Origin: Halorussus gelatinilyticus
Lineage (GTDB): Archaea > Halobacteriota > Halobacteria > Halobacteriales > Haladaptataceae
Reading direction: 5' to 3'
NCBI RefSeq assembly: GCF_023238445.1
Contig: NZ_CP096658.1
Location: 1,798,001-1,862,000, forward strand
DNA length: 64,000 bases
The notes under the pieces: generated by a model
Database searches by the model: none
What the model was told of the DNA's origin: nothing
What the model saw: only the letters and a program-made list of their open reading frames with translations
Shown: piece by piece, positions 37,323 to 41,163 of the stretch
Position numbering within the stretch: position 1 is the first letter of the stretch
Layout: each line of letters starts with the position of its first letter
Position numbers and translations under genes: made by a program

Positions 37323-37757
37323 ATGGTCGTCACGCTCTCGGACACGGCCCGGCAGTTCATCGCCCTCTTCGAGGACGAAACGGGTGCGACCGCCCGCGAC
37401 TGCGTGATCTTCGAGGAGGACGACGGCGAGGAGCGCGTCGTCTTCCTCGTCAAGCCCGGCGACATGGGCAAGGCCATCGGGTCGGGCGGTGAGACGGTCC
37501 GGTCGGTCGAGTCCCAACTCGACCGCGAAGTCGTGTTGGTCGAGGACGCCGACACCCCCGAGGCGTTCGTCGCCAACGCCTTGGCTCCCGCGGCGGTGTA
37601 CAACGTCACCGTCAGCGAGGACGACGAGACGGTCGCCTACGCCGAGGTGGACTCGGAGGACACCGGCGTCGCCATCGGCGAGGACGGCCGGAACATCGCC
37701 GCGGCCGAGACGTTGGCCAAGCGCCACTACGACATCGACGACATCCAGTTGACGTAG
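37323..37757 (+). CDS. nusA: NusA-like KH-domain transcription factor
   Basis: 144 residues consisting only of two KH domains, as in all archaeal NusA. KH1 has GDMGKAIGSGGETVRSVE and KH2 has TGVAIGEDGRNIAAAE. The bacterial N-terminal and S1 domains are absent, as expected. It is the last gene of the rpo operon; 163 bp then separate it from the Tat/PQQ cassette, whereas rps12 is the usual next gene in halophiles. Confidence 0.96.
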   Translation: MVVTLSDTARQFIALFEDETGATARDCVIFEEDDGEERVVFLVKPGDMGKAIGSGGETVRSVESQLDREVVLVEDADTPEAFVANALAPAAVYNVTVSEDDETVAYAEVDSEDTGVAIGEDGRNIAAAETLAKRHYDIDDIQLT

Positions 37758-37845
37758 ACTCGTAGCCCTTTTCGCACTCGCTATCGCGCCGGTGGTCGGC
37801 ACGACCGCCGGCGCAGTCGCGTCCTCTCGTTGAAAGCTCTCTCCC

Positions 37846-37855
37846 GAAATTTTAG
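37846..37855 (+). promoter_or_regulatory. TATA/BRE element before the Tat-PQQ cassette
   Basis: GAAATTTTAG (37846-37855) after a GC-rich stretch matches a haloarchaeal BRE plus TATA arrangement about 65-75 bp before the ATG at 37921. It implies that the cassette is transcribed independently of the rpo operon. Confidence 0.5.
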
Positions 37856-37920
37856 CCACAGCGACCCCGTTCCCGAGGCGAAGTTCTTCCCGACTCCCCG
37901 TGGTGACTCCGTACGTCATC

Positions 37921-38844
37921 ATGGGTGACAATGGCATATTCGCGGACGACGTACCGGACGTAGACGAGCGCGACCGGCGAAACTTCCTGAAGGTCCTCGG
38001 CGTGACGGGGAGCGTCGGCGCGGCCTCGGAACTCTCGCTGTCCGACCTACGCGGCGCGGTCGGCGGGGAGTCGGCCGAGCAGTTGGCGACCTACGGCGAG
38101 GCGATTCGGGCCGACCTCGCGGGCGGTCTCGACGGCGGCCGACTCGCGGGCGCGCTCTCGGGTATCGAGGCGGGAATCGCGCAACTGCCCGAACTCCGCG
38201 CCGCGGGGTTCCCCGACGAACCGGGGACCGCGTATCAGGAGGTCGCCGAACCCGCGTGGGAGGCCTACGACCACCTCGCGGAGGTGGGCTTCTTCGCGGC
38301 GGCCGAGCGCCACCTGCCGGAATTCACGCCCGACCACGTTCGGGCGACTGCCGCGGAACTGATTCGGGCCGAACCGCTGACTGCGGCGCTCGCCGACGCG
38401 GGCCTCACCGAGCGCGAGCGGACGGCGGTGGTCGTCGACGCGGTGAACAACAACGACCGGCTCTCCCACTGGGTCTCGACCGCGGCGCTGCCAGCCGACC
38501 CGGAGGACTTCGACCCGGCGAACGTCGCGCCGCTCCACCAGCGGGCGCTCGGCGGGGCGCTGCTCTGGATAGACGAACTCGACCAGCAACTCTGGCAGCG
38601 CGAGGTGCTGCTGACCGAGTCGATGCTCGACGACGGCATCTGGGACGTGAAGCAGATGCTGGGCGGAGTTCACATGTTCGTCTCGGCCGCTCGCGACGTC
38701 GCCGGCCCCGAGGAACTGTCCGACAGCCAGCTCGCCGCCGCGCTCGCGGGCGGCTCCGCGGTGGCGATCCGCGGACAGGAGCGGATAGAGGCCGACCTGT
38801 TCCGGATCACCGACGCCGACCGAGCGCCGATGGAGGGCATCTAA
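37921..38844 (+). CDS. Tat-exported helical protein, partner of the PQQ dehydrogenase
   Basis: 307 residues from the ATG at 37921. Residues 19-24 are the twin-arginine motif RRNFLK followed by a moderately hydrophobic h-region. The mature part is Ala-rich and all-helical, with a four-helix-bundle pattern (HLPEFTPDHVRATAAELI, LWIDELDQQLWQREVLL); it resembles ferritin-like bundles in layout but I see no clear di-iron ligand set. The stop is one base before the PQQ dehydrogenase start. Since that enzyme has no signal peptide, this protein may carry it across the membrane as a folded complex. That is inference from gene order. Confidence 0.8.
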   Translation: MGDNGIFADDVPDVDERDRRNFLKVLGVTGSVGAASELSLSDLRGAVGGESAEQLATYGEAIRADLAGGLDGGRLAGALSGIEAGIAQLPELRAAGFPDEPGTAYQEVAEPAWEAYDHLAEVGFFAAAERHLPEFTPDHVRATAAELIRAEPLTAALADAGLTERERTAVVVDAVNNNDRLSHWVSTAALPADPEDFDPANVAPLHQRALGGALLWIDELDQQLWQREVLLTESMLDDGIWDVKQMLGGVHMFVSAARDVAGPEELSDSQLAAALAGGSAVAIRGQERIEADLFRITDADRAPMEGI

Positions 38845-38845
38845 C

Positions 38846-40546
38846 ATGTCGACCGACACGCCACACGCACGAGTAATCGACAGCGACGAGGGCAAGAGAA
38901 TCGAGTACCTCGCCGACGGCCCGACGACCACGCAGTTCGACCTCCAGCAGATTCCGAAACTCAACGTCACGCAGGAGATGTTGCGCAACTCCGGCGACGA
39001 CCCCGAGACGTGGCTGATGTACGGCGGCGGCTACCGCCAACAGCGGTTCACGACCGCGGAGGTCATCTCGCCGGAGAACGTCAGCGACCTCTCGCTGGAG
39101 TACCTCATCGAGGTCCCGAAGGAGCAACGGGGGAAACTCGAAGGGACGCCCATCGTCGTCCCCTCGGATCCGCCGATAATGTACCAGACGAACGCCCCCG
39201 ACGTAGTTCGGGCCGTCAACGCCCGGTCGGGCGAAATCATCTGGGAGTACCAGTTCGCGCCCAAGGAGCAGGAGAAAGCGCCGCTCCTCTGTTGCGGGTC
39301 GAACAATCGAGGTGCGGCCGTACTGGGCGGCACCCTCTACATGACCACGCTGACTGCCGACGTCGTAGCCATCAATCGCTACACCGGCGAGCAGAAGTGG
39401 GTGTACAACTCCGCACCTACCGGACAGGGCTACTCGGCGACGTGGGCACCGGTCGTCTACGAGGGGAGCATCCTCAACGGGAGCGCTGGCGGCGAGTACG
39501 GCGTGCAGGGCTTCATCGAGTCGATCGACGCCGAGACCGGCGAGCGCGAGTGGCGGACCTCGATGCTCCCGCCGGAGCAGTGGATCGGCGACGCGTGGAA
39601 GAACGGGGCGGCGACCAACTGGATGACCGTCACGGTCGACCCGGACACCGACACTCTTTACGCCAACGTCGGTAACCCCGGCCCGGACGTGAACGGCATC
39701 GTCCGACCCGGACCGAACGTCTACTCCAACGCTGTCGTCGCGCTCGACGTGACCAACGGCGACGTGAATTGGTACTTCCAGGAGTCCCAACACGGCTGGT
39801 GGGACTGGGACGCCTCCGCACCACCGGTGGTGTTCGAGACCGAAGTCGACGGCGAGCAGCGAAAGGTGGTCAGTCACCCAGGCAAGACCGGATGGAACTA
39901 CCTCCTCGACGCCCAGAACGGGAAGCTCTACGAGCGGAGTCGGGAGTTCTGCGAACACCTCAACATGTGGCACCTGCCGCAGGACAACTTGGAGGACACG
40001 CCGTGGATTATGCCGTCGGCCGACGGCGGGTCGGAGTGGAACCCGGTGTCCTACAGCAGGGCGACCGGCAACGTCCACGTCAAGGCGATGAACTACCCGA
40101 GCAAGTTCCAGTGGGACCCCGTCGACGAGTGGGAGTACCCCTCGACGTACCTCGGCGGGAACTTCACCGTCTATCCGGCGATGGAGGACCCCGGTCCGCC
40201 GCCCGAGCAGTGGAGTCAGAACCTCGCCATCTTCTCGGCGGTGAACCCCGAGACCGGCGAAGTCGTCTGGCAGGACGAGTGGGAGCAGTTCGCCCTCGGC
40301 GGGTCGATGAGCACGGCGACCGGTCTCACCTTCGTGGGTAACGGTGCTGGCGAGTTCATCGCCTACGACTCCGAGACCGGCGAGCGCCTCTGGCAGTACC
40401 AGTTCGACGCCTCGATCAACGCCTCGCCGATGTCCTGGTACGACCCCGCCGTCGGCAAGCAGTACGTCGCGGTGCAGGCTGGCGGCGGCGGCCTTCGGTC
40501 GGTCAAGGACGGGAACGAGATAGGCGTGTTCTCGCTGGAACAGTAG
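38846..40546 (+). CDS. PQQ-dependent alcohol dehydrogenase-like eight-bladed propeller protein
   Basis: 566 residues with the quinoprotein methanol/ethanol dehydrogenase layout. It has Trp-docking blades (GEIIWEYQF, GEQKWVYN, GEREWRTS, GERLWQYQF), the vicinal Cys pair C149-C150 (LLCCGSNNRG, compare CCDxVNRG), the metal-ligand Asn motif GNPGP, and the catalytic region HGWWDWD with D320 as the base and D322 two residues later. The D-x-D form is that of lanthanide-dependent XoxF/PedH enzymes; calcium enzymes have Ala or Ser at the second position. The reaction would be oxidation of a primary alcohol using bound PQQ. No signal peptide, cytochrome c or PQQ biosynthesis gene is present in the window. 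The substrate is unknown. Confidence 0.88.
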   Translation: MSTDTPHARVIDSDEGKRIEYLADGPTTTQFDLQQIPKLNVTQEMLRNSGDDPETWLMYGGGYRQQRFTTAEVISPENVSDLSLEYLIEVPKEQRGKLEGTPIVVPSDPPIMYQTNAPDVVRAVNARSGEIIWEYQFAPKEQEKAPLLCCGSNNRGAAVLGGTLYMTTLTADVVAINRYTGEQKWVYNSAPTGQGYSATWAPVVYEGSILNGSAGGEYGVQGFIESIDAETGEREWRTSMLPPEQWIGDAWKNGAATNWMTVTVDPDTDTLYANVGNPGPDVNGIVRPGPNVYSNAVVALDVTNGDVNWYFQESQHGWWDWDASAPPVVFETEVDGEQRKVVSHPGKTGWNYLLDAQNGKLYERSREFCEHLNMWHLPQDNLEDTPWIMPSADGGSEWNPVSYSRATGNVHVKAMNYPSKFQWDPVDEWEYPSTYLGGNFTVYPAMEDPGPPPEQWSQNLAIFSAVNPETGEVVWQDEWEQFALGGSMSTATGLTFVGNGAGEFIAYDSETGERLWQYQFDASINASPMSWYDPAVGKQYVAVQAGGGGLRSVKDGNEIGVFSLEQ

Positions 40547-40702
40547 GTCCACTCAAACCTCCTTTCTCTGCGCCGCGAACGACTCTGCTGACAGAACCGA
40601 ACCTAAGCGGCGCGCAAATCGTTTCGATGAGACGCTCTCAGATTCCGTAATCGCCCCCGTTACAGCGATGTGCGACGGTTTCGTCCGCTCTAAAGAGGGA
40701 GG

Positions 40703-40710
40703 CTTAAGTA
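40703..40710 (+). promoter_or_regulatory. TATA element of the rps12-rps7 operon
   Basis: CTTAAGTA lies 25-32 bases before the rps12 ATG at 40735, preceded by purine-rich AGAGGGAGG. The spacing implies a leaderless or nearly leaderless mRNA, common for haloarchaeal ribosomal genes. Confidence 0.6.
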
Positions 40711-40734
40711 CCTCGGACGGATAGCACACGCCAT

Positions 40735-41163
40735 ATGGCGAACGGCAAGTACGCAGCTCGCAAGCTGAGAAAGGACCGCCAGAACCACCGGTGGTCCGAC
40801 TCCGATTACGCTCGACGCGAGCGCGGCCTCGGGGAGAAGTCCGACCCCCTCGAAGGCGCGCCGCAGGGCCGAGGTATCGTTCTCGAAAAAGTGGGCATCG
40901 AAGCCAAACAGCCCAACTCCGCCATCCGGAAGTGCGTCCGGGTCCAGCTCATCAAGAACGGCAAGCAGGTCACCGCCTTCTGTCCCGGCGACGGTGCCAT
41001 CTCGTTCATCGACGAACACGACGAGGTCACCATCGCGGGCATCGGCGGTGCGAAGGGTCGCGCGATGGGCGACCTCTCGGGCGTCAACTACAAGGTAGAG
41101 AAGGTCAACGGCGTGAGCCTCGAGGAACTGGTTCGCGGAAACGCCGAGAAACCGGTGCGCTAA
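40735..41163 (+). CDS. rps12: 30S ribosomal protein uS12
   Basis: 142 residues, full archaeal length. It contains the decoding-centre loop [20 protein letters not shown] (residues about 58-77) and the [21 protein letters not shown] stretch. It starts the uS12-uS7 pair of the str cluster. The archaeal N-terminal extension ([18 protein letters not shown]) is present. Confidence 0.98.

Follow-up and report, generated by a model that had tools for sequence, protein, structure and literature searches.

The window analysed here is a 64,000-nucleotide stretch of the Halorussus gelatinilyticus genome (contig NZ_CP096658.1, positions 1,798,001 to 1,862,000 of the forward strand), and coordinates are counted from its first letter (L, G and f numbers are our own handles for loci, genomes and families). 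It carries a gene for a PQQ-type dehydrogenase (DH) and, directly upstream, a gene for a smaller partner protein. In Halorussus, this two-gene cassette sits between a NusA-like gene and the gene for ribosomal protein S12 (window 37323–41163). The features are as follows:

37323–37757, forward strand: presumed NusA-like KH protein, directly upstream of the cassette
37843–37857, forward strand: putative BRE/TATA-like box, 63 bases before the ATG at 37921
37921–38844, forward strand: partner gene, ~307–314 aa (likely start ATG 37921; the open reading frame opens at GTG 37900)
37975–37992, forward strand: Tat-like motif RRNFLK of the partner (TIGR01409, 14.4 bits; cut-off 16.7)
38846–40546, forward strand: PQQ-type dehydrogenase (DH), 566 aa, no signal peptide (open reading frame, Pfam, NCBIfam, phmmer and alignment)
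39290–39295, forward strand: vicinal C149-C150 (alignment; 34/37 rows)
39494–39496, forward strand: metal ligand position E217 (alignment; 35/37 rows)
39674–39676, forward strand: metal ligand position N277 (alignment; 37/37 rows)
39803–39805, forward strand: catalytic Asp, D320 (phmmer and alignments)
39809–39811, forward strand: extra Asp, D322, at the lanthanide-type position (phmmer and alignments)
39884–39886, forward strand: K347, where XoxF, PedH and MxaF have the active-site Arg (alignment; Lys in 37/37)
40735–41163, forward strand: ribosomal protein S12 gene (rps12), directly downstream of the cassette

The putative BRE/TATA-like box at 37843–37857 suggests that the cassette may have a promoter of its own. 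Among 12 genomes with the NusA-like locus, four have the partner there, seven have rps12 as the next gene and no cassette (L079, L083, L084 and L087–L090; one of the seven, G009, has DH elsewhere), and one (G018) has neither. Where the NusA-like gene flanks DH, rps12 follows DH in 11 of 12 loci (L009–L019 and L029, with L019 the exception). We also observed tungsten aldehyde oxidoreductase (AOR) genes near DH in L041 (4280–6208), L043 and L048, molybdopterin oxidoreductase genes in L041 (924–3107), L042, L044 and L049, and, close to L044 and L045, binding proteins of the NMT1 type.

The DH open reading frame begins with ATG. The sequence-only reading had described its product as a haloarchaeal protein with the PQQ dehydrogenase fold, and both parts of this description held: Pfam PF01011 matched at 5.9e-63, the protein aligned to XoxF and quinoprotein ethanol dehydrogenase, and the genome is that of a Halorussus, with Halorussus aquaticus XZYJ18 the nearest named record (80% identity). 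The TIGR03075 model (PQQ-dependent methanol/ethanol dehydrogenases) matched over nearly the full length with 357.2 bits, below its curated cut-off of 480, and TIGR04528 ("acido-empty-quinoprotein") matched with 280.4 bits, below its cut-off of 650. The closest PDB sequences by phmmer were the quinohaemoprotein alcohol dehydrogenase 1kv9, XoxF 6dam and the ethanol dehydrogenases 6zcv/6zcw. The host genome, a single 3.67-Mb contig, contains a second clear DH copy (C1:2768321, 39% identical) and one short weak match. Within Halorussus, purifying selection acts on both DH and its upstream neighbour gene (NG86 dN/dS 0.22–0.32 in six pairs and 0.19–0.31 in five pairs, respectively). In one Halorussus genome (G026), the DH gene lies in two overlapping frames (L053 8623–10335 and 9477–10325), through either a frameshift or an assembly error.

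The motifs read in DH are C149-C150, G276-N277-P278 and W318-W319-D320-W321-D322, and E217 and K347 complete the site; the ligand roles are those that we presume from the XoxF and MxaF literature. The metal triad, the extra Asp and the vicinal Cys pair all lie where the sequence-only reading had placed them and align as in XoxF and PedH. By phmmer, D320 and D322 fall on both Asp residues of XoxF 6dam (HDEWDYDG) and on both of 6zcv/6zcw (HDGWDYDG), with no gap close by in either case. We place the metal site by sequence alignment, since AlphaFold2 on two-row alignments gave models with pLDDT values of 30.5 and 37.0.

The D-x-D motif occurs without exception in 56 distinct haloarchaeal homologues, namely the 37 of the main alignment and 19 more picked from paralogue places (56 read of 83 DH places, omitting both fragments of the split gene in G026 and the duplicate L108, which is the same place as L047). 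Because it is kept throughout this set, the motif is not a chance occurrence. The other PQQ and metal positions are also retained in the main alignment (E99 in 35 of 37 rows; R155, W259, N277, D320 and K347 in all 37). The vicinal Cys pair is present in 34 of the 37 rows and in none of the 19 additional homologues; the raw count of 36 was two too many, as two of the additional homologues have CC only in a leader before the start. Position 484 is Trp in 22 of 37 rows and Leu in the window DH. In one subfamily of haloarchaeal DH that lacks the Cys pair (L101–L103, L105, L106 and L110), a long, acidic insert rich in Glu and Asp lies in the later part of the sequence.

DH was found in 53 of 293 Halobacteriales genomes at E ≤ 1e-60 and, at E ≤ 1e-30, in 10 of the 392 genomes of a phylum sample, seven belonging to the order and three to family f20. 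These f20 relatives, which lie outside the order, are weak (31–32%) and have frames of 771–804 aa (G375 C3:77761–79161, G505 and G587). In a quick tree of 52 rows (SH-aLRT only, with a program warning of long branches and with few bacterial rows, all but one plasmid-borne), the 37 haloarchaeal rows formed one clade (SH-aLRT 99), apart from XoxF/MxaF, PedE/H, the "WDLD" group and GDH. The possibility that DH is simply XoxF was ruled out by the separate clade, the Lys in place of Arg, the lack of a signal peptide and the lack of a cytochrome neighbour.

The partner tracks the dehydrogenase closely, and its homologues stand beside DH in the loci compared. A partner profile (A1) built from 16 homologues matched 54 of the 293 genomes, that is, all 53 DH genomes and one of the 240 others, where the match is a 56-residue fragment (G251). 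At 81 of 83 DH places, a count in which the split G026 gene figures twice, the partner lies less than 2 kb upstream on the same strand, and both misses are in G145. Seven of the 392 genomes of the phylum sample have the partner, all within the order, and the profile had no match outside the order in that sample. Against 72,556 plasmids, it matched eight records, all haloarchaeal and labelled "hypothetical protein" where annotated, and no bacterial plasmid. Pfam and NCBIfam assigned the partner to no named family, with just a sub-threshold Tat match, and the profile had no relative in the PDB (best E 0.41). The AlphaFold2 model looks helical and is too poor to use; the partner is probably a small, helical protein. 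The partner thus represents a new protein family without a name, found only in haloarchaea and obligately linked to DH.

Could this partner carry the dehydrogenase out of the cell? None of the 37 haloarchaeal DH N-termini is hydrophobic (best 15-residue Kyte-Doolittle mean ≤ 0.52; five rows are over-long open frames, in which the stretch preceding the aligned start was checked visually), and an export signal of the XoxF/PedH type was absent from the haloarchaeal DH. The same measure gave 1.2–3.1 in 14 of 15 bacterial rows and 0.84 in the Streptomyces row; that plasmid-borne PQQ-DH (L072 1902–3602) has CC and DYD and an only weakly hydrophobic N-terminus. In Halorussus, in G198 and G009 and in the second paralogues, the partner begins with RRxFLKxLG or a near variant. 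The window partner scores below the Tat cut-off in both libraries (13.3 bits in Pfam and 14.4 bits with TIGR01409). In one scan of ten partners, three exceeded the TIGR01409 cut-off of 16.7 (L052, 20.0; L004, 16.9; L049, 17.2 bits), four fell below it (L017, 16.5; L044, 15.8; L048, 13.5; L051, 11.2 bits), and those of L041, L043 and L047 gave no match. Furthermore, the Tat-like motif is gone in the partners of families f8, f15 and others, several of which adjoin a Tat-type copper protein. It is therefore plausible that DH is co-exported on its partner in Halorussus, and the case does not extend to all clades.

PqqC (TIGR02111) exceeded its cut-off in none of the 53 DH genomes (strongest stray match 17.6 bits; cut-off 240) and matched in none of the 293 Halobacteriales genomes at E ≤ 1e-5, and the same model recovered PqqC of Azospirillum (1.8e-108) and Sinorhizobium (3.1e-129) as positive controls. 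A search for PQQ synthesis genes, which the sequence-only reading had suggested, therefore came back empty, and the stronger PqqE-like protein of the window genome turned out to be TIGR04053. The PqqE-like matches are other radical SAM proteins, none of them over the cut-off, and their presence in Halorussus does not track that of DH; a role as PQQ maker was rejected on this ground and on the TIGR04053 score (NCBIfam, 480 bits; cut-off 395). This radical SAM/SPASM protein (L039 9646–11067) also matches the PqqE model, and in haloarchaea it could be mistaken for a gene of PQQ synthesis. The PqqB matches, found in 53 of 53 genomes, were likewise set aside as superfamily-level only, as none was over the cut-off and 10 of 14 controls matched too. 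In the absence of PqqC, PQQ, if used, would be scavenged or made by another route, and scavenging is the most likely. The lack of PqqC is compatible with PQQ use because scavenging is possible; E. coli scavenges PQQ, according to one report (PMC12124388). For Haloferax mediterranei, another gives the STRING label "biosynthesis of the PQQ coenzyme (cmo_1)" (PMC11218638).

Blue-copper genes (PF00127) stand beside or are fused to DH in at least 31 of the 56 distinct loci by hand tally (19 neighbouring genes, 8 fusions and 4 further neighbours), a lower bound since flank lengths differ between loci. No cupredoxin gene adjoins the window's own DH copy. The eight fusions are the second paralogue of the window genome and seven copies (L094–L100) from six further genomes, all Halorussus and relatives. 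The fused domain is N-terminal and has GAPH and YxCxxHPxxM, with the type-1 ligands H, C, H and M kept in all eight. A profile of five stand-alone copper proteins, which is not independent because it was built from loci of the same DH family, picked out of 241 sequences the eight fusions, five neighbouring frames and no other DH. Pfam at 1e-3 missed the fused domain when given the full-length L004 protein, and phmmer with the L004 N-terminus gave only weak PDB matches, the top three being copper proteins (E 0.065–0.12). The case for fusion is thus built on BLAST to neighbouring copper proteins, the five-protein profile and the ligand residues. Cupredoxins are normally extracytoplasmic.

The explanation that we favour, and to which we give about an even chance, is that DH and its partner are co-exported, that scavenged PQQ and a calcium or lanthanide ion are loaded outside, and that electrons pass to a cupredoxin. 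The two genes would form a module in which the folded, signal-less DH leaves the cell bound to the Tat-like partner as a hitchhiker, on the model proposed for the gamma and alpha subunits of FAD glucose dehydrogenase. Outside the cytoplasmic membrane, the apo-enzyme would take up environmental PQQ, the cell having no PqqC, and a metal ion would be held by E217, N277, D320, D322 and PQQ, a site that either a trivalent lanthanide or Ca could fit. With D320 as the general base, an alcohol or sugar substrate would be oxidised, and the electrons would move from DH to the blue-copper protein.

Which metal would occupy this site? The sequence-only reading had taken the extra Asp as a lanthanide-type signature, which found no support in that form, because the motif is not confined to enzymes that use lanthanides. 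It is present in E. coli Gcd (WDMD), and among the 15 bacterial rows, it is absent only from a Paracoccus row (Ala; an unannotated record that we infer to be MxaF-like) and a Stutzerimonas quinohaemoprotein-ADH-like row (Thr). According to one study, m-GDH, which also has D-x-D, can complex and is active with Ca, Mg, Zn or Sr, and the motif is read there as a sign that lanthanide binding is at least facultative (PMC11996626). Since D-x-D is so widespread, its presence alone cannot name the metal, whose identity is beyond what sequence can settle; lanthanide use by DH is possible on this pattern of residues. A strictly lanthanide-dependent alcohol dehydrogenase of the XoxF/PedH kind overlaps with our favoured explanation and differs in the metal claim. 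D322 is invariant and falls in the alignment on the lanthanide Asp of both 6dam and 6zcv, and the window DH has Asp where the MxaF-like row has Ala. Set against this are the presence of D-x-D in Gcd and in most of the other bacterial groups in the comparison, the metals accepted by m-GDH, the Lys in place of Arg and the separate clade. Furthermore, the lanmodulin-like protein that the sequence-only reading had proposed to look for was not found: no EF-hand_7 match, and hence no candidate by that model, occurs in the genome. We consider strict lanthanide dependence a doubtful though not negligible prospect.

A cytoplasmic quinoprotein, for its part, would keep DH and partner inside, with the partner structural or PQQ-loading, PQQ imported and aldehydes handed to cytosolic enzymes such as tungsten aldehyde oxidoreductase. 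The missing signal peptide of DH fits this arrangement, as do the partners without a Tat motif in loci of families f8, f15, f4 and f6, the AOR-cluster and molybdopterin-oxidoreductase-cluster genes in 3 and 4, respectively, of 17 long-flank DH loci (one member of each cluster scanned) and the NMT1-type proteins near several loci. We nevertheless regard it as rather unlikely: cupredoxins are fused to DH or follow it with a Tat signal of their own, the bacterial relatives have signal peptides, and we know of no PQQ importer in archaea. Least probable, and quite improbable in our estimate, is a propeller in which fold and site persist with another cofactor or none and PQQ is not bound. The absence of PqqC across the 293 genomes of the order sample and the sub-cut-off "empty quinoprotein" match (TIGR04528) would suit it, but 35–37 of 37 rows retain each of the PQQ and metal positions that were mapped, dN/dS is low, and the cupredoxin fusions point to redox work.

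Stronger than the lanthanide reading is the finding that haloarchaea have a quinoprotein module of two genes, with a partner from a new family, coupling to cupredoxins and no PqqC. The broader proposal that Halobacteriales have an extracellular quinoprotein system of their own, in which a lanthanide (or Ca) PQQ-DH uses scavenged PQQ, is carried by the haloarchaea-only partner and passes electrons to a cupredoxin (fused in some paralogues), is put forward tentatively, as something that may well prove wrong. If true, it would mean that a halophilic archaeon has an enzyme able to use rare earths, and one that is a quino-cupredoxin dehydrogenase; we found neither kind described in the open-access literature. 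To our knowledge, lanthanide use has so far been tied almost wholly to bacteria, and within the same literature (subscription papers lay outside its scope), we found no haloarchaeal PQQ-DH with this site. A conserved, selected archaeal D-x-D enzyme without PqqC makes it testable which metal and whose PQQ are used and how a signal-less DH meets an extracytoplasmic copper protein, and the unnamed partner family is linked near-perfectly to PQQ-DH enzymes. The D-x-D comparison is also a warning against taking the motif as proof of lanthanide dependence.

Among known systems, the partner resembles the gamma subunit of FAD glucose dehydrogenase, described in one report as a small, helical, Tat-bearing "hitchhiker" subunit that the catalytic subunit needs for secretion (PMC6719666). 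Both are small and lie beside a catalytic subunit, but the gamma subunit pairs with a flavoprotein, and the haloarchaeal partner belongs to no Pfam family apart from its weak Tat signal. The PQQ-DHs of heterotrophic marine thaumarchaea are likewise archaeal, and some have DYD/DXD, with blue copper proposed as a possible acceptor; however, the Cys pair is missing from 21 of 21, signal peptides are present in 15, and a PQQ synthase is reported (PMC7300363). XoxF (6dam, 4mae, the S. meliloti pSymB copy and Sagittula XoxF5) has the propeller fold, the vicinal Cys pair and the E-N-D-D site in common with DH, whereas the haloarchaeal enzyme has Lys for the PQQ-side Arg, no signal peptide and no cytochrome/XoxJ neighbour, falls in a separate clade and stays below the TIGR03075 cut-off (357 against 480 bits). 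The PedH/ExaF-type ethanol dehydrogenases (6zcv, 6zcw) have D-x-D, the vicinal Cys pair and the E and N ligands in common with DH, which again differs by the Lys for Arg, the missing signal peptide, the missing cytochrome neighbour and the separate clade. The bacterial rows closest by identity (33–35%) are those of the WDLD group, Burkholderiales and Rhodobacterales PQQ-DHs from Ideonella, Paraburkholderia, Caballeronia and Alloyangia plasmids. Like the haloarchaeal DH, they combine D-x-D, the vicinal Cys pair and Lys; unlike it, they have signal peptides of their own, and a c-type cytochrome adjoins the Ideonella and Alloyangia copies.
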